A DNA stretch of 64,000 bases from Blastococcus sp. CT_GayMR19 (GTDB lineage: Bacteria > Actinomycetota > Actinomycetes > Mycobacteriales > Geodermatophilaceae): contig NZ_SPQL01000008.1 in the NCBI RefSeq assembly GCF_004570385.1, positions 124,001-188,000 of the forward strand, read 5' to 3'. Numbering within the stretch: position 1 is the first letter of the stretch; every line of letters starts with the position of its first letter. The notes beneath the pieces were generated by a model that was not told the origin of the DNA, did no database searches, and was given only the letters and a program-made list of their open reading frames with translations. Shown piece after piece: positions 54,010-63,987 of this stretch. A program made the translations under genes and the position numbers.

Positions 54010-55038
54010 TCACAAAGGCAGTACCGGCGCCGAGACCGAACGCGTTCCGCCCATCCACCCGGGCAGGAGCAGCATCTTCACGCCCGCTCCCCCGGTGACG
54101 ACGACGTGCACGTCCGCCGCGGAGGCGGCCACCGTCAACCCGCCGAGCGCATCGGCCGCCACCAGACCGGCCGCACCCGATCTCAGCAGCGCGCTCCCCC
54201 GCTCGAACAGGAATCCCGCGATCCGCTCGGTGTCCCATCCGCGCTGCGCGGTGTAGGCCGCCAGCTCCGGCGGCATCAGCAGGAACTGCTCACCCAGGCG
54301 GGCCCGGCGCGGATCGCCCGCGGCCAGGGCCACCCCGGCCATCGCCGCCGCGGCCGGCGCCAGGACGTCCGGCACGTCGCGGTAGCCCTCGGCCGGCAGC
54401 ACCTCCACCACGCTCCCGGCCCCCACCACGGTCACGGCGTCCGCGTCCGCCGCGAACCCCCGCCGGACGGCGAGCGAGGGCAGCGGCCCGCCGGGGACCT
54501 CCGCCGTGCAGCATGTGTACTTCGCCGGCGAGCCGATGGTCGCCATGTCGGTCAGGCCCGCCGTCGCGCCGCCGATCCCGGCCAGCGCCAGCGAGACGGC
54601 CCGGCCCGCGCACGCGTTGGCCCGGTTGCCGGTGCCCAGCCCACCGGCACCCGATGTCAGGCCCGCCCGCGCCGCGACCGGACCGTGCACCAGCACCGCC
54701 ACCGCCGGCGCACCGGTCGTCGTCGCGATGCCGAGCAGGTTGAACGCGTCGTCCAGCGCCGCCCGGCAAGCGGCCACCACCACCGGCAGCTGCACCGGCC
54801 GGCAGCCGGCCAGCACCGCGTACCAGCCGACGGCGCCCACCGTCAGCTCGCCGAACAGCGGCGGCACGAGTCCGAGCACCGCGTCCGGAGCACGGACGCC
54901 GGCCAGCATCGCCGTGAGCCGGCCAGCGGTCGGCGGCACGACCGGCAGCCCGTCCCCGTGCCCGGTCGCCAGCAGGTCGTCGAGCACCACCGACGGGTCG
55001 GCGTCGGCCGCCACGAGAGGCGGGTCCGACGAGGTCAC
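54010..55038 (-). CDS. unknown protein, paralogue B of the selenoprotein operon
   Basis: The 342-residue protein resembles that at 56290-57333: HGDGLPVVPPTAGRL near the start, WYAVLAGCRPVQLPVVVAACRAALDDAFNLLGIATTTGAPAVAVLVHGPV in its core (parts shared: GCRPxxLPVVxAA), GNRANACAGRAVSLAL, KYTCCTAEVPGGPLPSLAVRRGFA and VVTGGAGVKMLLLPGW. I recognise no catalytic motif. Its GTG start overlaps the MFS stop (GTGA). The two paralogues flank an MFS transporter at the end of the operon that encodes the UAG-selenoprotein, so they may be parts of the same pathway, perhaps binding or converting its substrate. Confidence 0.75.
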   Translation of the reverse strand: MTSSDPPLVAADADPSVVLDDLLATGHGDGLPVVPPTAGRLTAMLAGVRAPDAVLGLVPPLFGELTVGAVGWYAVLAGCRPVQLPVVVAACRAALDDAFNLLGIATTTGAPAVAVLVHGPVAARAGLTSGAGGLGTGNRANACAGRAVSLALAGIGGATAGLTDMATIGSPAKYTCCTAEVPGGPLPSLAVRRGFAADADAVTVVGAGSVVEVLPAEGYRDVPDVLAPAAAAMAGVALAAGDPRRARLGEQFLLMPPELAAYTAQRGWDTERIAGFLFERGSALLRSGAAGLVAADALGGLTVAASAADVHVVVTGGAGVKMLLLPGWMGGTRSVSAPVLPL

Positions 55039-56243
55039 GGGACGGGCTGTTCGACCCGCGGCTCGGGTGCGCGGTCCGGGCGCGGCACCCACCGCCACAT
55101 CGCCACCGCACCGAGCAGCCCGACGCCACCCACGAACCACACCCCGCTGGCGAGCCCGGCGACCGCCGCCACCCCGCCGAGCAGCAGCGGACCTGCACCG
55201 AGGCCGAGGTCGGCGAGCAACCGGAAAACGCCGAGGAAGGATGCCCGGCCCGCGCTGGGCGAGGCGTCGGCACCCAGGACCATGACGAGGCCGCTGCTCA
55301 TGCCGTTGCCCAGCCCCATGAGGGCCGCGGCGAGCGCGAACGTCACGACCCCCGAGGTGAACGGCACGGCGATCAACCCCAGGCCCATGAGCAGCATGGC
55401 CGGAACGGCCACCCACATCCGGCCGTAGCGGTCCATCACCTTGCCGGCCGGATAGAACAGCAGCATGTCGACCGCGCTGCTGAGGCCGAAGATCAGCGCC
55501 GTGGTCGAGGCGTCCAACCCGATGCTCTGGCCCCAGATCGGGATGACCGCCAGCCGCGCGGCCCGGACCACGCCGACGAACGACGCCGCCGTCCCCACGG
55601 TGAGCAGGACCTTGCGGTGCGAACGGACGACGTCGGCCAGCCCGACCTTGGCCGAGGACGTCCCGGCCCCGTGTCCGGGGACGTCCGGCAGGAACAGCAG
55701 CAGCAGGGCACCGGCGGCCGCCGCGGCGATGTGGACCCCGTACGCCGCGTCGGTCCCGCCCAGCGCCATGGCACCGGCACCCAGGAAGGGGCCGGCGAAC
55801 GTACCGATCCGCTGCACCCCGCCCAGGGTGGACAGCGCCCGGGCCCGCATGTCCGGGGAGACGGCCTCGGTGAGGTAGGCCTGCCTGGCCAGCTGCCACA
55901 CCGCGGTGGCCGCGCCGGTCAGGCCGACGGCCACACCCAGCACCCACACCGCCGGAGCCAGGACGCACACGACCAGCGCGGCCGAGACGAGCAGCGTCGC
56001 CCACAGCATGGCGCGGCGCTCGCCGATCCTCGCGGTCAGTTGGCCCGCCGGGATGTCAGCCAGCAGGTGACCGAGGCCGACGGCGCCGACGACGACGCTG
56101 GCGCCCCCGACACCGGCACCTAGATCCAGCGCCGTCAGGGCGATGACCGGCGCGATCGCCCCTTGACCCAGCCCATAGAGCATCGACGGCAGGAACACGG
56201 TCGGTGCGACCGACCGCAGCGACACCGTGCCGGCGACCGTCAC
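55035..56243 (-). CDS. MFS transporter
   Basis: A 402-residue membrane protein with about 12 hydrophobic segments. PAGQLTARIGERRAMLWATLL is the loop 2-3 motif of major facilitator proteins, and AGKVMDRYGRMW its repeat in the second half. It may import the substrate or export a product of the operon. GTG at 56243, 46 bp after the previous gene, and overlapping stop with the next gene indicate co-transcription. Confidence 0.87.
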   Translation of the reverse strand: MTVAGTVSLRSVAPTVFLPSMLYGLGQGAIAPVIALTALDLGAGVGGASVVVGAVGLGHLLADIPAGQLTARIGERRAMLWATLLVSAALVVCVLAPAVWVLGVAVGLTGAATAVWQLARQAYLTEAVSPDMRARALSTLGGVQRIGTFAGPFLGAGAMALGGTDAAYGVHIAAAAAGALLLLFLPDVPGHGAGTSSAKVGLADVVRSHRKVLLTVGTAASFVGVVRAARLAVIPIWGQSIGLDASTTALIFGLSSAVDMLLFYPAGKVMDRYGRMWVAVPAMLLMGLGLIAVPFTSGVVTFALAAALMGLGNGMSSGLVMVLGADASPSAGRASFLGVFRLLADLGLGAGPLLLGGVAAVAGLASGVWFVGGVGLLGAVAMWRWVPRPDRAPEPRVEQPVP

Positions 56244-56289: not shown

Positions 56290-57333
56290 TCACGAGCGCA
56301 CGGGGACGGGACGCGAGACCGCCGCCGTGGCCCCGAACGACGGGATCCACGCCGAGTGCTTCCCCGCACCCCCGGCGACCAGGACGTGCAGCATGTCGGG
56401 GCCGGTGCTGACCGGGAAGAAGTCGCCGTCGGGCTTCACACCCCAGTCCTCGAACTGGCGGTGGTTCTCCTCCGACACCTTCGACACCGGCACGCGCGCC
56501 CGCTCCCACAACGTCTCTCGCAGCTCGTCCGCCGTCCACCCGTCGCGGTGCAGCGTCGCCGCGTGCTCCGGCCCGAGCACCAGGAAGTGCGGGCCCTTCA
56601 CGTACAGGTTGTTGGACCCAGTCTGCGCCATCGTCCCGGCGATGGTCATCAGCAGGCCCTCGCCGGTCGTGCTGCCGTGGTCGTTGATGTTGTGCGGCCC
56701 CTCGCAGGCCGCCACCGTCACCACCGACTCACCCGGCGCGAACCCGCGGCGCACCGACAACGGCTCGAACGGGCTCTCCTCCTCGTTCTCACCGAAGCAC
56801 CACGAGTACTTCGCCGGGTTGCCCTGCGTCGACCGGTCCATCGAGCCGGGGCGCGCGCCGCCGATGTGCGTCGTCACCAGCTGCACCGCCCGCCCGATGA
56901 CGGCGTTGGCCCGCGTCCCCTGTCCGAAGCAGTTCGTCCCGCAGTTGATCCCCAGGGCGGGGCGCACGGGACCGTTGACGATCACCAGCGGCGCGCACGG
57001 GTGCGTCGTGGCCAGCACGCCGTGCAGGTTGTACTCCGGCGCGAGCATCGCCCGCACCGCCGCGAGCACCACCGGCAGGTCGGCGGGCCGGCACCCGGCC
57101 ATCACGGCGTTGGCCGCGAAGCTCTCCCGCGTCGGCACCAGCCCGGACGGCGGCACCGGCCCCAGCTCGAGCTCGATGCCCTCGAGCGCGGCCAGCGCCG
57201 CCGACACCCGCGCCGGGGTCGGCGGCACCGTGGGCAGCCCGTCGCCCCAGCCCCGCTCCCAGGCGACCTCGTGCCAGTTCTCCTCGGTGACGCCCGGCAG
57301 CTCGAGCACCTCGGTCGTCCCCCCGGCGGTCAC
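56290..57333 (-). CDS. unknown protein, paralogue A of the selenoprotein operon
   Basis: A 347-residue protein: EVAWERGWGDGLPTVPPTPARV, AVMAGCRPADLPVVLAAVRAMLAPEYNLHGVLATTHPCAPLVIVNGPV (parts), GINCGTNCFGQGTRANAVIGRA and HVLVAGGAGKHSAWIPSFG. Four Cys in the middle (INCGTNC and others) could bind metal or serve redox. No known catalytic motif was recognised. GTG at 57333 overlaps the TGA of the selenoprotein gene (GTGA), so it is coupled to full read-through: only a ribosome that passes TAG at 57582 reaches this start. See paralogue B at 54010-55038. Confidence 0.78.
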   Translation of the reverse strand: MTAGGTTEVLELPGVTEENWHEVAWERGWGDGLPTVPPTPARVSAALAALEGIELELGPVPPSGLVPTRESFAANAVMAGCRPADLPVVLAAVRAMLAPEYNLHGVLATTHPCAPLVIVNGPVRPALGINCGTNCFGQGTRANAVIGRAVQLVTTHIGGARPGSMDRSTQGNPAKYSWCFGENEEESPFEPLSVRRGFAPGESVVTVAACEGPHNINDHGSTTGEGLLMTIAGTMAQTGSNNLYVKGPHFLVLGPEHAATLHRDGWTADELRETLWERARVPVSKVSEENHRQFEDWGVKPDGDFFPVSTGPDMLHVLVAGGAGKHSAWIPSFGATAAVSRPVPVRS

Positions 57334-58790
57334 TCGGCCCCCCGCGCCTCGTCGGCCAGCGTCAGCAGCTCCGCCGCGGCGGTCTCGATCTTCGCGGCCA
57401 GCTCCCCCTCGTTCAGCCCGCCCACCGGGTGCGGCACCACGATCAGCCGCGGCGACACCCGCCGGGCCTTCGCCTGCGCCTCCACCAGCGGCAGGAACGT
57501 CGAGGTCACCAGCAGCGGTGCCACGACGCCACGCTTCTCCAGTTCGACCGAGTCGTGGAGACTCCACGACGAGCACGAGCCCTAATCACCGACCGCCACC
57601 ACGACCATCTTGTAGTTCTGCGAGAGCCAGTCGATGGTGTCCTTGTCGGCCGCCGCCGAGGCGTTGTCCTTGCTGGCGAAGCCCAGGTCCCGCAGGTCCC
57701 AGTGCGCCTGCAGCCGCTCCCCCACCCCGCGCAGCAGCTCGGTGGCGTTGGGCTTGGAGTTGGTGAACAGCGCGACCTGGGTCCAGTCGGCGGTCCCGCC
57801 CGCCCGCACCTCGACGTCGGCGTCGTCCGGCAGCACGCCGAACGTCGGATCGACGATGCGCAGCCCGCCGCCCGCCGGCCCCCCACCCGCCGGTCTCAGT
57901 GCCGCGACGGCGGCCTGGCCCGCAGCTGCCCCGTCGGCGACGACGGACAGCAGCGTCTGGGCGGCGCCGGCACGCGCGTCACCGGCCACGAACACCGTGG
58001 GGACGGCGGTGCGCACGCCGTCCTCGGTCAGGAGACGCTTCTCCGCGTCCGCCGGTAGGCCGTCGACCAGCCCGACCGGCCCGCTCCGCCCGACGTACGG
58101 GAAGACGCCCTGCACCGGGAGCTCGCGCTCGCCGTCGCCGGTCCGGACCGTGACGCCCTGCAGCACGCCGTCGGCGCGCAGCCCGGTCACCATGGCGCCG
58201 GTCAGCACCTCGACCCGGTCGGCCGCCGTCAGCCGCTGGTCGCGCTCGGGTGACCAGCGCGGCGTCCCGGGCACCAGCACCGTCACCGAGGACGCCAGCT
58301 CCGCGAGCTCGAGCGCCTCCTCCGCGGTCCACTCGTCGTCCCCGACCACCGCGACCGCCTTGCCCCGGTAGAGCGGACCGTCGCAGCCGGCGCAGGTCGA
58401 CAGGCCACGGCCGACCAGCGCCTCCTCGCCGGGCAGCCCGAGGCGCCCGTTGGTCAGCCCGGTCGCGATCACCACGGCGCCCGCCGTCACCTCGCCGCCG
58501 GACGTCTCCAGGCGCGCCGGCGCCCCGGCGTGCACGCGCGTCACCTCGTCGAAGCTCATCGTGACGCCGGCCGCCTCCGCCCGGGCGACCAGCTCGGAGA
58601 TCAGCGCCCAGGGCTCCGCGGAGCCGCCCGGCTCCGGGTAGTCGTGCAGCGTGGTCAGGTTGACGAGCTGACCGCCGGGCGACAGCCGGTCGTAGGCGAT
58701 CACCCGCCGGCCCGCCTCCGCCGCCACCCGCGCCGCGGTCAGCCCGGCGACACCCCCGCCGACGACGGCGATCTCCCATTCGGTGCTCAT
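57330..58790 (-). CDS. UAG-encoded selenoprotein: thioredoxin reductase-like flavoprotein fused to a UGSC domain
   Basis: If TAG (57584-57582 on the minus strand) is read as selenocysteine, the gene encodes 486 residues with Sec403. Residues 1 to about 310 are a thioredoxin reductase-like flavoprotein: VVGGGVAGLTAA (FAD site), STCAGCDG (redox CxxC, Cys133/136), a second nucleotide fold with a weak motif (AVVGDDEW) and VFVAGDARAG. Residues about 325-486 are a UGSC domain: NSKPNATELLRGVGERL, KMVVVAVGD-[TAG]-GSCSSWSLHDSVELEKRG, VVPHPVGGLNEGELA. The UGSC family is named for Sec-Gly-Ser-Cys, and here the stop codon stands exactly at the U. UAG-directed selenocysteine was reported for Geodermatophilus and Blastococcus (Mukai et al., 2016). 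A bSECIS-like hairpin begins 11 bases after TAG. ATG 58790 overlaps the previous stop (ATGA). Termination at TAG would give a truncated flavoprotein; a nonsense mutation is the alternative. Confidence 0.82.
57552..57570 (-). promoter_or_regulatory. bSECIS-like hairpin after the TAG codon
   Basis: On the minus strand, 11 bases after TAG, GTCGTGG-AGTCT-CCACGAC forms a perfect 7-bp stem (inner G-A-G-T-C-T-C can pair further). E. coli fdhF places its upper SECIS stem 11 bases after UGA, with the apical sequence AGGUCU; here AGTCT is similar in position and sequence. It overlaps the codons for Ser-Trp-Ser-Leu-His-Asp, so it is both coding and structural. Probable binding site of SelB. Confidence 0.7.
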
Positions 58791-59866
58791 GCGTTGCCCA
58801 GTCCCGTCGAGATCCGTGGCCAGAGCTCGTCCGCGCCGGCCTCCGCCAGCTGGCGGCCGAGCTCGCGGCTCCAGTAGCGCTCGCTGCCGAACTCGTCCCG
58901 CCAGGACCACAGCCGCCGGCTGAGCTGGCCGAGCTCGTACTCCTTGGTCATCCCGATCGCCCCGTGTGCCTGATGGGAGGCGCGCGCCGCGATCGTCGCC
59001 GCCTCGCTCGCCGCCGCCTTGGCCGCGGCGACGTCGAAGAAGCCCGGCTCCGGCCGGGCGTTCAGCGTGGCCACCTCGGTCGCCAGCCCGGCCATCTGCG
59101 CCTCCTCGGCGATCGTCACGAGGTGAGTCTGCACCGCCTGGAACCGGGCGATCGGACGGCCGAACTGGTGCCGCTCCCCGGTGTACCGGACGGTCAGCTC
59201 GCTCACCCGCGCCAGTGCCCCGGAGATCAGTGCGGCCCGGCTCAGCGCACCCCGCAGCCGCAGCGCATCGCCGGTCACGCCGGCGGGGGCGACCCCCACG
59301 GCGTCGTCGGGCAGTCCGGCGTCGGTCCACTCCAGGGTGTCCCGCGGCTCGGCGGCCAGGTTGCGGCCCCCGGTCACGCCCGCCGACGCGACCGGCGCGG
59401 ACACCACGTACCGGTCGCCGCCGGCGTCGGCCAGCAGCGCGACCCGCTCACTGCGGCCGCCCCACGGCACCCGCTGCACCCGCGCGGTCAGCCGCCAGGC
59501 GCCCGGCCCGCCGGCGAGCTCGACGGCGTCCCCGGGCCGGCCGACCGCCACCGAGAGCGGGCCCTCCGGGAGCTCCAGGCCCGCCGCGGCCAGCAGCCAG
59601 CCGCCCAGCAGACCGGTCTCCGCCAGGGGCACCGGCGCGGCGAAGCGCCCGGCCACGGTGAGCAGCGCGCACGCGTCGGCGATGTCGCCCCCGGACCCGC
59701 CGGCCTCCTCGGGCACCGACACGTACGGGAAGCCGGACTCGGCGAGCGCCGACCAGAGCCGCTCGCTCCACCCGGTCGCCTCGGCGGCGACGACGTCCTC
59801 GGGGGTGCACAGATCGCGGAAGAGGCCGGTGGCGACGTCGGTCAGCATCGCGCGGTCGTCGCTCAT
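58787..59866 (-). CDS. acyl-CoA dehydrogenase, second (short) subunit type
   Basis: A 359-residue member of the acyl-CoA dehydrogenase family: FPYVSVPEEAGGSGGDIADAC, RYTGERHQFGRPIARFQAVQTHLVTIAEEAQ (the flavin-binding helix pattern), ASEAATIAARASHQAHGAIGMTKEYELGQLSRRLWSWRDEFGS. The usual catalytic Glu of medium-chain enzymes is not clear in the region GMTKEYELGQLSR. Such divergent subunits often pair with a second dehydrogenase to make a heteromer, as next door. The ATG overlaps the preceding stop (ATGA); the TGA overlaps the start of the selenoprotein gene. Confidence 0.85.
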   Translation of the reverse strand: MSDDRAMLTDVATGLFRDLCTPEDVVAAEATGWSERLWSALAESGFPYVSVPEEAGGSGGDIADACALLTVAGRFAAPVPLAETGLLGGWLLAAAGLELPEGPLSVAVGRPGDAVELAGGPGAWRLTARVQRVPWGGRSERVALLADAGGDRYVVSAPVASAGVTGGRNLAAEPRDTLEWTDAGLPDDAVGVAPAGVTGDALRLRGALSRAALISGALARVSELTVRYTGERHQFGRPIARFQAVQTHLVTIAEEAQMAGLATEVATLNARPEPGFFDVAAAKAAASEAATIAARASHQAHGAIGMTKEYELGQLSRRLWSWRDEFGSERYWSRELGRQLAEAGADELWPRISTGLGNA

Positions 59867-61002
59867 GCCGAGAGCCCCTTCGCCGCCACCGAGCGCAGGA
59901 TCTCCGTCGTCCCGCCCTGCAGCGTGTACTTCGGCGACGTGAGCACCGCCTCGGCGAGCAGCTCGCCGAACAGCGACCCCGAGCCCTGGTCGAGCTCGGT
60001 CTCGGCCGCGACCCGCAGCGCCTCCACCAGGTCCTGCTCGAACCGGGTCCCGACCTCCTTGACCAGCGCCGCCTCGATCGCCGGCGCAGCACCGGCGTCC
60101 AGCGCCCGGGCGACCGACAGCGACAGCTGGCGGATCGCCCAGAACCGCGCGGCCAGCCGCCCGACGACCGTCGCCTCCTCGTCGGAGACACCCGTGCCGG
60201 CCTTCTCGCGGAGGAACTCGCGCAGCACCGGGAAGGTCGACAGCCACCGGTCCGGGCCGCTGCGCTCGTAGGCCAGCTCGCTGGTCACCTGCTGCCAGCC
60301 GGACCCGATCTCGCCGAGCACCATGTCGTCGGGCACGAAGACGTCCTCGAGCGCGACCTCGTTGAAGTGGTGCGAGCCGTCGATGTAGGGGATCGGCGAG
60401 ATCCGCACCCCGTCGGCGTGCAGGTCGACGATCAGCTGGGAGAGCCCGGCGTGCTTCTTCCCCTCCTCCATCGGGGAGGTCCGGCAGAGGACGGCGAAGA
60501 AGTGGTTGTTGTGCGCCTCGCTGGTCCACACCTTGGTGCCGGTGACGGTCCAGCCGCCCTCGACCCTGGTCGCGCGGGTGCGGACGGAGGCGAGGTCGGA
60601 GCCGGAGTCGGGCTCGCTCATGCCGAGGGAGAAGTAGATCTCCCCCGCCGAGATGCCCGGGAGGAACCGCTGCCGCTGCTCCTCGGTGCCGTAGTGCAGC
60701 AGGGCCGGGCCGGTCTGCCGGTCGGCGACGAAGTGCGCGCCGACCGGGGCGCCGGCAGCCAGGAGCTCCTCCGCGACGACGAACCGCTCGACCGCGCTGC
60801 GCCCGTGCCCGCCGTACTCGGGCGGGAGCGCCATCCCCACCCACCCGCGGGCGGCGAGCTTCCGCGAGAACGCCGGGTCGTGCCGGCCGGCGAACCCGAG
60901 CGCCGGCCGGTGGTCCGGGGGCAGCTCCGCGGCCAGGAACTCGCGCACCTCGGCACGCAGCGCCGCCTCGGCGGGGCTGAGCGGGGTGGGACCGAACTGC
61001 AT
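59863..61002 (-). CDS. acyl-CoA dehydrogenase, first subunit type
   Basis: A 379-residue acyl-CoA dehydrogenase: ALPPEYGGHGRSAVERFVVAEELL, LGMSEPDSGSDLASVRTRATR (the SEPxxGSD flavin motif), TGTKVWTSEAHNNHFF and LQGGTTEILRSVAAKGL at the end. It removes two hydrogens from an acyl-CoA thioester using FAD. ATG at 61002 follows AGGAG. It overlaps the second dehydrogenase gene, a typical layout for two-subunit dehydrogenases acting on unusual acyl-CoAs such as those from sterol or aromatic side chains. Confidence 0.88.
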   Translation of the reverse strand: MQFGPTPLSPAEAALRAEVREFLAAELPPDHRPALGFAGRHDPAFSRKLAARGWVGMALPPEYGGHGRSAVERFVVAEELLAAGAPVGAHFVADRQTGPALLHYGTEEQRQRFLPGISAGEIYFSLGMSEPDSGSDLASVRTRATRVEGGWTVTGTKVWTSEAHNNHFFAVLCRTSPMEEGKKHAGLSQLIVDLHADGVRISPIPYIDGSHHFNEVALEDVFVPDDMVLGEIGSGWQQVTSELAYERSGPDRWLSTFPVLREFLREKAGTGVSDEEATVVGRLAARFWAIRQLSLSVARALDAGAAPAIEAALVKEVGTRFEQDLVEALRVAAETELDQGSGSLFGELLAEAVLTSPKYTLQGGTTEILRSVAAKGLSA

Positions 61003-61028: not shown

Positions 61029-61766
61029 TCAGGCCGTCTCGCGCCGCCGCATGGACCACATCTGGGTGGCCCGCTCGAAGTGCAGCCCGGCGTCCCAGCC
61101 GATCCCGGGCGGGCCGGCCTCGGTACGGAAGGACCGCACCGCCTCGCGGGCGAGCTCGGGGTCCTTCGCCGCCCGCCCCGCCAGCTCCAGCGCCAGGTCC
61201 TCGACCTGGTCGTCCGGCACGGCCTTCCAGGCCAGGCCGATCTCGGCCGCCCGGACGCCGTCGATCTCCTCGCTGAACAGCCCCATCGCGGCGGTGGCCT
61301 CGCGGCCCGCCGTGCGCGAGGAGATGGTGAAGTAACCGCCACCGGGGTGCAGGCCGATCCGGAGGAAGCCGGCCAGCAGGCGGGCGTTCTCCGCCACCAC
61401 GCGCAGGTCGGTGGCCAGCGCCAGGTTGATCCCGGCCCCGACGGCCGCCCCGCGGACGGCCGCGATCGTCGGCATCGAGAGGCTGCCGACCCGCTTGAAG
61501 GCGGTGTAGACCGCGCCGAGCTCCTTGTAGTTCTGGTCCTCGGCCTGGTCCGCGCCCGGGTTCCAGCGGCGGCGGTCGGCGCCCGAGCAGAACATGCCCC
61601 CGGCACCCCGGACCACGGCTGCGCCCACGGCCCGATCGGCGTCCACCTCGTCGCACAGCGCCGACAGCTGCAGCCCCATCTCCGGGGTCAGCCCGTTCTT
61701 CACGTCGGGGTTGTCGACGGTGAAGACGGCGACGCCGCCCTGCTTCTCGAGCGTTATCTGTCCCAC
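61029..61766 (-). CDS. enoyl-CoA hydratase/isomerase family protein
   Basis: A 245-residue crotonase-fold protein: ITLEKQGGVAVFTVDNPDVKNGL, VVRGAGGMFCSGADRRRW (oxyanion loop), AVRGAAVGAGINLALATDLRVVAENARLLAGF and IGLHPGGGYFTISSRTAGREATAAMGLF. The two catalytic Glu of true hydratases are not at the expected places (GAGINLAL, HPGGGY), so hydration of a double bond is uncertain; isomerase or thioesterase chemistry is possible. It is a close relative of the frameshifted gene at 9019-9773. GTG at 61766. Confidence 0.85.
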   Translation of the reverse strand: MGQITLEKQGGVAVFTVDNPDVKNGLTPEMGLQLSALCDEVDADRAVGAAVVRGAGGMFCSGADRRRWNPGADQAEDQNYKELGAVYTAFKRVGSLSMPTIAAVRGAAVGAGINLALATDLRVVAENARLLAGFLRIGLHPGGGYFTISSRTAGREATAAMGLFSEEIDGVRAAEIGLAWKAVPDDQVEDLALELAGRAAKDPELAREAVRSFRTEAGPPGIGWDAGLHFERATQMWSMRRRETA

Positions 61767-61818: not shown

Positions 61819-63987
61819 TCATTCGCCGAGCGGAACGCCGCGCCCGCTCGTGCTGACCAGGACGTCGACGGCGGTGGCACCGCGCCCGCGCGCTGCCACG
61901 ATGAGCGGGTTGACCTCGAGTTCGGTGAGCCGGTCCCCGCCCGCGACGATGGCCTGGGACAGCCGCATCACGGCGTCGACGGCGGCCGGGACGTCGGCCG
62001 GCTCGGCACCGCGGAACCCGGCCAGCAGCGGCCACGCGCGCAGGCTGCGCAGCATCGCCCAGGCCCGCTCGGGGGTGACCGGGGCCAGCCCGGAGGCGAT
62101 GTCCCGGTAGAGCTCGGTCGTCACACCGCCGAGCCCGACCGTGATCACCGGCGGGAAGCCGTCCCGCCCGGCGGTGGCGCCGAGGATCAGCTCGGTGCCG
62201 GGCGGGATCAGCTCCTGCACCAGCACGCCCTCGACGTCCGGCACGTGGTGCCGCTTCGCGGAGTCGAGCAGCTCGCGGAAGACCGCCGCGGCCTGCTCCG
62301 CCGGGACGCCGACCCGCACCCCCCCGACGTCGCTCTTGTGCGCCAGCTCGCCCGCCGCCAGCTTGAGCACGCCCGGGCCGGGCAGCGCGGCGACGGCCTC
62401 ACGGGCCGCCTCGGGGGTGGTGACCAGCGTCGAGGAGGGCTGCGCTATCCCGATCGCGCGCAGCAGCGCCGACCCGTCGACGACCGGCGCCTGCAGCAGC
62501 TCCCGGATCTCCGCGGACGGCGGCGCCGGCGCCGGCGGCAGCGCCGGGACGGTGCCGGGGTGGCGGGGTGGGGCCATGCGGGCCGCGCACCGGGCGACGT
62601 CGCCGACCGAGCCGAAGATGGGGATGCCGGCCTCGCGGAAGACCGCACGGCCCTCGGTGGTGAGTTCCTGGCCGGCGATCCAGCCGACCAGCAGCGGGAC
62701 GGGCAGCTTGCCGGCCGTGGCCACCAGGTCCTCGGCCAGCCGGGCGCCGGCGTCGCCGACGACCATCGTGACGAACACGGCCACCACGTCGACGGACGGG
62801 TCGTCGGCGACCATCCGGCAGACGTCGCCGAAGGCGTGCGCGCCGCGGTTGAACAGCTGGGCGGTCACGTCCACCGGGTTGGTGAGCGCCCCGAAGGCCG
62901 GGATCAGCGGGCGGAGCCGGTCCTGCGTCGCCGCGGCCAGTTCCGGCATCTCCAGGCCGAGGTCCTCGCACTGGTCGGCCGCCAGGCTCCCCGCGCCGCC
63001 CGAGGTGGTGACGACGGCGACCCGCCGTCCCTCCGACCGCTTGCCGGTGGCCAGCACGGCCGCGACCGCCAGCAGCTCGTCGATGTCGTGGACCAGGACG
63101 ACGCCGTGCTCCTGGGAGGTCAGCACGAACGCGACGTCGTCACCCAGCATCGACCCGGTGTGGCTGGCCACCGCGCGCCGGCCGGCGCTGGAGCGCCCCG
63201 AGCGCAGCACCACGAGGTGCTTGCCCATCTCCCGCGCCCGGCGCGCCAGCGCGGCGTAGGCGACGCCGTCGTCGGCGGCCTCGACGTAGAGCATGAGCAC
63301 CCGGACCGCCGGGTCCGCCAGCAGCTCACCGGACACCTGCACCAGGTCGAGGTCGGCCTGGTTGCCGGTGCTCGCCCACGCGGCCAGCCCGAGGCCCATG
63401 TCGGTGGCCAGGTCGAGCACCGACCCGCCGACCGCCCCGCTCTGCCCGACGTAGGCCACCCCGCTGTCGTGCGCCAGGGGCCGGTCGGCCGCGGCGGTGA
63501 AGGTCGCGACGACGCCGGTCGGTGCGTACAGGAAGCCCTGGCAGTTGGGGCCGAGCACGCGCACCCCGGTCTCGCGGGCCACCGCGGTCAGCCGCTGCTG
63601 CAGGGCCACGCCCTCCGGGCCGACCTCGGCGAAACCGGACGCGTAGACGACGGCGGCCTTCGCCCCGACCGCCGCCGCCTGCCGGATGGCGTCCTCGACC
63701 CGCTCCGCGGCGACCAGCACGAGCACCAGGTCGACCGGGCCGGGCACGTCGGCCAGCGTCGGGTAGCACTTCTGCCCGACCAGCTCCTGGTAGTTCGGGT
63801 TGACCGGGTAGATGCCGCCCGCGTAGCCGTGCTCGACGAGGTAGCGCAGCGGCCGCGCCATCAGGTTCTCCGAGCGACCCGAGATCCCGAGCAACGCGAT
63901 GCCGCGCGGCCGCAGCAGCGCCTGCAGGCCGTCGGGCCGGGCCCCCTGCGGCGGTTCCGGGGCGGATCCCGACGGCGGCTCGGTCAT
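61819..63987 (-). CDS. acetate-CoA ligase family protein (ADP-forming acyl-CoA synthetase type)
   Basis: A 722-residue protein with both halves of an NDP-forming acyl-CoA synthetase. N-terminal half: CoA-binding domain (LLRPRGIALLGISGRSEN, GGIYPVNPNYQELVGQKCYPTLADVP region, ATGKRSEGRRVAVVTTSGGAGSLAADQCE) with the swinging His seen as SHTGSMLGDD. C-terminal half: ATP-grasp (LLQAPVVDGSALLRAIGIAQPSS, VLKLAAGELAHKSDVGGVRVGV, GVLVQELIPPGTELILGATAGRDGFPPVITVGLGG). It would activate an acid as a CoA thioester for the dehydrogenases and crotonase that follow. First gene of the operon in this window. Confidence 0.87.
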   Translation of the reverse strand: MTEPPSGSAPEPPQGARPDGLQALLRPRGIALLGISGRSENLMARPLRYLVEHGYAGGIYPVNPNYQELVGQKCYPTLADVPGPVDLVLVLVAAERVEDAIRQAAAVGAKAAVVYASGFAEVGPEGVALQQRLTAVARETGVRVLGPNCQGFLYAPTGVVATFTAAADRPLAHDSGVAYVGQSGAVGGSVLDLATDMGLGLAAWASTGNQADLDLVQVSGELLADPAVRVLMLYVEAADDGVAYAALARRAREMGKHLVVLRSGRSSAGRRAVASHTGSMLGDDVAFVLTSQEHGVVLVHDIDELLAVAAVLATGKRSEGRRVAVVTTSGGAGSLAADQCEDLGLEMPELAAATQDRLRPLIPAFGALTNPVDVTAQLFNRGAHAFGDVCRMVADDPSVDVVAVFVTMVVGDAGARLAEDLVATAGKLPVPLLVGWIAGQELTTEGRAVFREAGIPIFGSVGDVARCAARMAPPRHPGTVPALPPAPAPPSAEIRELLQAPVVDGSALLRAIGIAQPSSTLVTTPEAAREAVAALPGPGVLKLAAGELAHKSDVGGVRVGVPAEQAAAVFRELLDSAKRHHVPDVEGVLVQELIPPGTELILGATAGRDGFPPVITVGLGGVTTELYRDIASGLAPVTPERAWAMLRSLRAWPLLAGFRGAEPADVPAAVDAVMRLSQAIVAGGDRLTELEVNPLIVAARGRGATAVDVLVSTSGRGVPLGE

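Follow-up and report, generated by a model that had tools for sequence, protein, structure and literature searches.

Bacteria of the family Geodermatophilaceae reportedly decode UAG as selenocysteine (Sec) in formate dehydrogenase (FDH), UGSC-motif and AhpC selenoproteins, as Mukai is said to have described in 2016. UAG-coded FDH, UGSC-motif and AhpC selenoproteins of this family, together with a selenocysteine transfer RNA (tRNA-Sec) of anticodon CUA, are already in print, and the accessible part of the paper in question, which cites Mukai, shows a bacterial Sec insertion sequence (bSECIS) for the AhpC gene but makes no mention of a fusion to a flavoprotein, of genes for partners, of a link to GRDB or of a PrdB-like gene with UAG (PMC5330540). 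A fusion of UGSC to a protein called Unknown_1, not described as a flavoprotein in the sections available, comes from ocean metagenomes (PMC2398784). In glycine and D-proline reductase, according to the available portion of a further paper, a Sec protein acts with a (probable) carbonyl-bearing partner and with thioredoxin or another dithiol donor, glycine reductase using the thioredoxin dithiol (PMC10298544). Here we analyzed a 64,000-nucleotide stretch of Blastococcus sp. CT_GayMR19 (contig NZ_SPQL01000008.1, positions 124,001 to 188,000; hereafter the window), whose minus strand carries a gene joining a flavoprotein like thioredoxin reductase (TrxR) to a UGSC domain. The gene shares with the reported selenoproteins the bacterial family, the CUA tRNA-Sec, a TAG at the Sec site and the UGSC motif; with UGSC/Unknown_1 it shares the joining of UGSC to another protein; and with the UGSC family (PF24696/NF041046) it shares the motif and an adjoining partner gene, L1, but it differs from that family in being joined to a flavoprotein and in scoring below the NF041046 cut-off.

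The fusion gene starts with an ATG at 58790-58788, and its frame runs through 402 codons to a TAG at 57584-57582 (codon 403) and then through 83 sense codons, not 82 as the first-pass annotation had counted, to a TGA at 57332-57330 that overlaps the GTG start (57333-57331) of L1, the overlap being as originally described. The PF24696 domain scored 123.8 bits (gathering cut-off, 25) with its UGSC motif present, while the UGSC equivalog NF041046 scored 107.9 bits against a cut-off of 125. Of 112 genomes searched in the family, 19 contained the fusion (25 fusion loci were read and six duplicates removed); cultured carriers include Geodermatophilus obscurus DSM 43162 and Blastococcus mobilis DSM 44272. 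Five of the family's loci match Blastococcus or Geodermatophilus loci without a difference over about 800 nt around the TAG, on which basis the family was taken to be Geodermatophilaceae. In every one of these 19 distinct loci the match contains exactly one stop, a TAG, which is the codon ahead of GSCSSW and is followed by 83 codons. The proposal that one in-frame TAG occupies the Sec site of UGSC was thus borne out by the frame, by the Pfam domain that spans the TAG and by the orthologues, in which stops are not randomly placed, and the UAG at codon 403 very probably specifies Sec on the evidence of these sequences.

We also weighed whether the UAG simply terminates, the gene being a pseudogene or a sequencing artefact and the downstream frame a remnant. 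UAG does still end selB in the same genome, which speaks for termination; against it, the orthologues come from five genera and share one TAG and no other stop, and tRNA-Sec(CUA), selA, selB and selD are all present. Moreover, among the 19 fusion loci, mean pairwise differences at codon positions 1, 2 and 3 were 0.115, 0.099 and 0.201 in the 83 codons after the TAG, and 0.104, 0.111 and 0.214 in the 60 codons before it. Third positions vary most on both sides of the TAG, and both sides therefore evolve as coding sequence. Together with the invariant TAG, this brings termination close to refuted and makes it extremely improbable. A pseudogene or sequencing error was rejected because a single TAG occurs in 19/19 orthologues.

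Homologues of the UGSC domain vary in the codon used at this site. A family-wide search with PF24696 yielded 95 matches, spread over 54 of the 112 genomes; by our own row count 72 contain one TAG, 23 no stop and none a TGA or TAA. A phylum-wide draw of 396 genomes yielded UGSC in 26, and the 41 matches, counted in the same way, comprised 34 with TGA, six without a stop and one with TAG, which is the locus described here. Wherever the motif pattern could read the site, the codon was TAG, TGA or Cys, as anticipated for a Sec column (six loci missed by the pattern, L096, L106, L107, L167, L168 and L169, were left out). A split homologue from another family with a UCA tRNA-Sec (L066) has TGA at the site, and genome G243, without a tRNA-Sec match at E ≤ 1e-8, has the Cys form. 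The fusion is the sole UGSC match in the Blastococcus genome. Eight family genomes (G075, G514, G515, G516, G527, G531, G532 and G541) hold TAG-containing and stop-free copies together; in each, the single stop-free copy that was read (L158-L165) encodes Cys and is without the AGT found at the tip of the hairpin described below.

The genome from which the window was taken (G000; 4.57 Mb, 42 contigs, completeness 100) encodes the full set of Sec-decoding components that the first-pass annotation had proposed as a check. Its tRNA-Sec scored 66.7 bits (Rfam, gathering score 47), has the anticodon CUA and clusters with selA (421 bits), selB (303) and a Cys-type selD (386), all above their cut-offs; a tRNA scan of the window itself found none. 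ARAGORN labels the CUA tRNA 'tRNA-Pyl', which would favor a reading of UAG as another amino acid, either pyrrolysine or one delivered by a near-cognate tRNA, but we take the label to follow from the anticodon alone. Rfam identifies the molecule as tRNA-Sec, the site holds TGA or Cys in the homologues that were read, and the best match to pyrrolysyl-tRNA synthetase (PylS) in the genome reached 26.5 bits, where the cut-off is 178. Pyrrolysine was rejected on the last of these grounds, and insertion of any amino acid other than Sec is scarcely credible.

The CUA anticodon is widespread in the family: among 37 family genomes, 29 have CUA, five have UCA only and three were unread, and loci from other families of the order had a UCA tRNA-Sec in all 15 that were read. 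One of the 29 (G029) contains both a UCA tRNA-Sec (L009/L133, contig C17) and a CUA tRNA-Sec (L055/L134, contig C11). The former lies within a 19.9-kb stretch of lower G+C content (0.697, compared with 0.76 in the next 19.8 kb of the contig and 0.772 at the CUA locus) and may be an acquired UGA-reading tRNA; a search of 39.7 kb of this contig with selA, selB, selD and the fusion gave no match to a second Sec system.

Directly after the TAG, with its stem starting 11 nt from the codon, lies a hairpin of SECIS type (SECIS, Sec insertion sequence), a candidate for SelB binding. The upper stem of Escherichia coli fdhF likewise begins 11 nt after its Sec codon. At residues that are invariant among the 19 loci, third-position variation was 0.023 in codons 1-11 after the TAG, 0.178 later and 0.211 before it. 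AGT was counted 21 times among the serine codons of the fusion genes, and 19 of these are the codon at the tip of the hairpin, which is AGT at all 19 loci. For alignments of the hairpin, Sec genes with an identical 48-nt stretch were removed, as was L079 from the Cys set as a duplicate of L078. In the resulting 28 distinct Sec genes (five TAG, 23 TGA), 96.9% of stem cells were paired, compared with 91.8% after shuffling, and eight cells had changed on both sides of the stem; none of 500 shuffles reached either value. One position of the stem pairs as C-G in 21 of these genes and as G-C in seven, and another changes from G-C to A-U in the split homologue. The eight Cys homologues had 56.3% of hairpin cells paired, compared with 56.0% when shuffled. 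The hairpin is thus conserved among Sec genes, through compensatory substitutions, but not among Cys homologues. Among 18 further TAG-type UGSC loci of the family, 17 keep all eight pairs and one keeps six, and the nine Cys-type family loci that were read keep three to six. Stems of at least 7 bp at exactly this offset follow 4 of the 466 codons of the fusion gene, the hairpin after the TAG included, and stems of at least 8 bp follow 550 of 127,880 positions on the two strands of the window.

This genome has two further candidates for UAG-coded Sec. An FdhA-like frame contains one TAG and then a similar hairpin, whose stem begins 11 nt after the codon. A PrdB-like gene (L154, contig C16:5478-5930) has TAG at the Sec position of a UPVC motif, where its relatives L155 and L156 have TGA, and its stem begins 10 nt after the codon. 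The selB gene ends in TAG both here (L039:5996-7750) and in G029 (L134), although TAG is the Sec codon in these genomes. Given that UAG still terminates selB, recoding of UAG is local. Continued use of UAG as the selB terminator would also suit a gene with two products, in which some ribosomes stop at the UAG to give a 402-residue flavoprotein and selenium supply sets its ratio to the full-length enzyme. Such a short form would contain the whole flavoprotein domain, but it would end within the UGSC domain and carry a remnant of about 90 residues of it, and we regard a dual product as quite unlikely.

We next turn to the N-terminal half of the fusion, which the first-pass annotation had called a thioredoxin reductase. 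With the TAG read through, the pyridine nucleotide-disulphide oxidoreductase family PF07992 matched residues 6-273. The features that bind flavin adenine dinucleotide (FAD) and form the redox disulfide support the label in part, GxGxxG and CAGC/CAAC being kept in all 12 distinct fusions aligned. By contrast, the GGGDSA and HRR motifs that solved thioredoxin reductases use for reduced nicotinamide adenine dinucleotide phosphate (NADPH) are replaced by G(D/E)D(E/D)WT and VPxxP in the same 12. The TrxR equivalog TIGR01292 matched the whole domain (2.7e-53), but its score of 180.7 bits is below the cut-off of 343. The fusion half thus resembles bacterial thioredoxin reductase in its FAD motif, its CxxC and its similarity over the whole domain but departs from it in the NADPH motifs, and because these are lost and the equivalog score is below the cut-off, we named the domain TrxR-like. 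The flavin and the CAGC disulfide probably reduce the Sec domain.

The UGSC domain proved to be distantly related to the Sec half of GrdB/PrdB. A 35-sequence UGSC profile aligned with a 14-sequence profile of the GRDB Sec half at an hhalign probability of 94.9% (E 4.3e-8), with Sec on Sec, and a smaller UGSC profile of 17 sequences gave 89.2% (E 2.2e-6), while a control comparison of L1 with GRDB gave 0.2%. The PrdB-like protein L154 matches both PF07355 and PF24696, the latter below cut-off. Searched against PDB sequences, the UGSC profile returned five matches (E 0.015 to 0.95) that are unrelated in kind and were taken as chance; the GRDB profile had no solved relative at E ≤ 0.01, and a search of a viral structure library gave no useful match. 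The predicted structure of the UGSC domain (predicted local distance difference test (pLDDT) 86.8, predicted template modeling score (pTM) 0.83) is an alternating strand-helix fold with Sec after a strand and just before a helix. Its best solved matches were weak, to flavodiiron flavodoxin domains (E 8e-5, template modeling (TM) score 0.49). A thioredoxin fold was considered and rejected, since none of the 50 solved matches listed is a thioredoxin.

A gene of about 350 codons belonging to the L1/L2 family, which comprises L1 and its paralogue L2, accompanies UGSC at 29/29 phylum loci, 16/16 named loci and 29/30 family loci, or 74 of 75, most of which were examined in 1.5 to 5 kb of flank. Neither L1 nor L2 had a Pfam match even at E 5, L1 had no match in NCBIfam, and against PDB sequences L1 gave two chance-level matches (E 0.49 and 0.8). 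Its structure was predicted with a pLDDT of 86.5 and a pTM of 0.89, and no solved fold matched the model at E ≤ 0.001. In Pseudonocardia sp. MH-G8, UGSC in its Cys form and an L1-type partner share one open frame (L080:4998-6668), and Unknown_1 may likewise be an L1-type partner.

These associations bear on whether the Sec protein is instead a general thiol or peroxide reductase with an antioxidant role, served by the flavoprotein as its reductase, with L1, L2 and the acyl-coenzyme A (acyl-CoA) genes as mere neighbors. Many Sec oxidoreductases are antioxidant, at least in the portion of the source available (PMC13188914), and the accessible text of the metagenomic study suggests a thioredoxin-like fold and redox activity for UGSC (PMC2398784). 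The weak flavodiiron matches and the lack of a thioredoxin among those listed argue against this role, as do the profile link to GRDB and the L1-type gene in the flanks of nearly all UGSC loci, fused in one of them. An antioxidant function is accordingly rather unlikely.

A comparison with the glycine and proline reductases suggests what the fusion might do. GrdB/PrdB (PF07355) is distantly homologous to UGSC in its Sec half, where the two Sec residues align, but its system differs from that of the fusion in its direct PF07355 match, its pyruvoyl partner GrdE/PrdA and its host lineage; the fusion in turn has its reductase on the same chain and a partner without any Pfam match. In the explanation that we favor, UAG 403 would be read by tRNA-Sec(CUA), SelA, SelD and SelB, directed by the SECIS hairpin 11 nt downstream, to give one chain with an N-terminal TrxR-like flavoprotein (FAD plus a CAGC disulfide) and a C-terminal UGSC domain. 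Sec403 and Cys406 could form a selenenyl sulfide, and electrons would flow from flavin to CAGC to the Se-S bond. UGSC, a small distant relative of the GrdB/PrdB Sec half, would act with L1/L2 to break a bond reductively, the substrate being a small organic acid or the CoA ester of one; the acid would enter or leave as a CoA ester, and the product would be processed by the operon's CoA ligase, hydratase and acyl-CoA dehydrogenases. GrdB/PrdB-like chemistry with L1/L2 is, by itself, a tentative proposal that might well be wrong. The explanation as a whole, combining local UAG Sec, a flavin-fed UGSC domain and a GrdB/PrdB-like reductase working with L1/L2 beside acyl-CoA genes, appears on balance the likelier account of these sequences.

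Several observations weigh against this explanation. The family that hosts the fusion is known as aerobic, and Grd and Prd are mostly anaerobic enzymes. The NADPH motifs are gone from the very flavoprotein that is meant to supply electrons; some ferredoxin-dependent TrxR-like enzymes likewise lack them. The fusion protein (P0001) has no PF07355 match at E ≤ 0.001, and the relationship with GrdB/PrdB is therefore one of distant kinship and not membership. For L1, neither the sequence nor the fold points to GrdE/PrdA or to any solved protein. The cluster of Blastococcus mobilis lacks the acyl-CoA dehydrogenases, which are therefore not essential to the cluster. On the decoding side, the tRNA-Sec anticodon was read in just four of the 19 fusion genomes (G000, G009, G022 and G026). 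The hairpin shuffle test is inflated by kinship among the sequences and, for the 28 Sec genes, is weak on two of its five measures: pairs altered at both positions numbered two, a value reached by 16 of 500 shuffles, and further pair types numbered four, reached by 386 of 500. Conserved residues force part of the hairpin, and a 7-bp stem closing a larger loop persists in three of the Cys homologues (L078, L079 and L082).

With regard to novelty, UAG-coded UGSC selenoproteins of Geodermatophilaceae had already been reported, and only their fusion to a flavoprotein seems unreported in the literature searched. The UGSC proteins described earlier may be the TAG-containing non-fusion copies, which are also present in family genomes. 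In the open-licence literature we found no mention of the flavoprotein-UGSC fusion, of L1 or of the UGSC-GRDB link. What is new here is the loss of the NADPH motifs, the distant homology of UGSC to GrdB/PrdB and a partner family without a Pfam entry. It is conceivable, though we would put it below an even chance, that UGSC and L1/L2 form a widespread, undescribed GrdB/PrdB-like selenoenzyme system, found in actinobacteria and, with Cys in place of Sec, in Natronomonas, and that its reaction is the cleavage of a bond in a compound linked to acyl-CoA. The Geodermatophilaceae version would be self-powered by fusion to a flavoprotein without the usual NADPH use, and its catalytic residue would have switched from UGA to UAG along with the tRNA and with other selenoproteins. 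The locus offers a well-supported natural case of UAG read as Sec, with a visible SECIS, a split relative that uses TGA and Cys homologues, and the codon switch can thus be studied one gene at a time. The locus further provides a way into the role of UGSC selenoproteins, the first that we found in the literature searched, through a fused electron donor, a closely linked partner family and a connection to glycine and proline reductase. Annotation with the standard code would cut the fusion gene at the UAG. The features of the locus are collected in Table 1.

Table 1. Coordinates within the window of the fusion gene, its parts and the surrounding genes.
Feature	Position	Strand	Remarks
TrxR-like flavoprotein/UGSC fusion selenoprotein gene	57330..58790	-	486 residues, Sec at 403, TGA stop
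TrxR-like FAD/disulfide oxidoreductase domain	57909..58775	-	residues 6-294; GxGxxG kept, NADPH motifs altered
Redox-active CAGC motif, Cys133 and Cys136	58383..58394	-	numbered by hand on the translation
UGSC domain PF24696	57360..57857	-	residues 312-477, E 1e-35, spans the TAG
In-frame TAG as putative selenocysteine, U of UGSC	57582..57584	-	
SECIS-like hairpin, 8-bp stem, GUC loop	57552..57570	-	starts 11 nt after the TAG
L1, large partner 1, 347 residues	56290..57333	-	no Pfam or NCBIfam match
Major facilitator superfamily (MFS) transporter	55035..56243	-	between L1 and L2
L2, large partner 2, 342 residues	54010..55038	-	L1 paralogue, 36% identical
Acyl-CoA dehydrogenase-like gene 2	58787..59866	-	its stop overlaps the fusion start
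Acyl-CoA dehydrogenase gene 1	59863..61002	-	
Enoyl-CoA hydratase family gene	61029..61766	-	
ADP-forming acyl-CoA ligase-like gene	61819..63987	-	upstream end of the cluster as found in relatives

The neighborhood of the fusion was compared among relatives by tblastn. In 10 of the 11 named fusion loci the genes follow the order CoA ligase, hydratase, two acyl-CoA dehydrogenases, fusion, L1 and L2. For the MFS transporter (55035-56243), no homologue above 35% identity was found in the flanks of the 11 named loci. A genome from another family of the order (G095) has the set in split form, with UGSC (TGA), L1, a separate TrxR-like gene, L2 and a permease, and this cluster (L112, C2:286000-304500) includes a selB-like gene and a UCA tRNA-Sec in the same 18.5 kb. 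The permease that follows L2 in it gave a weak match to SaoE, at 46 bits against a cut-off of 325.

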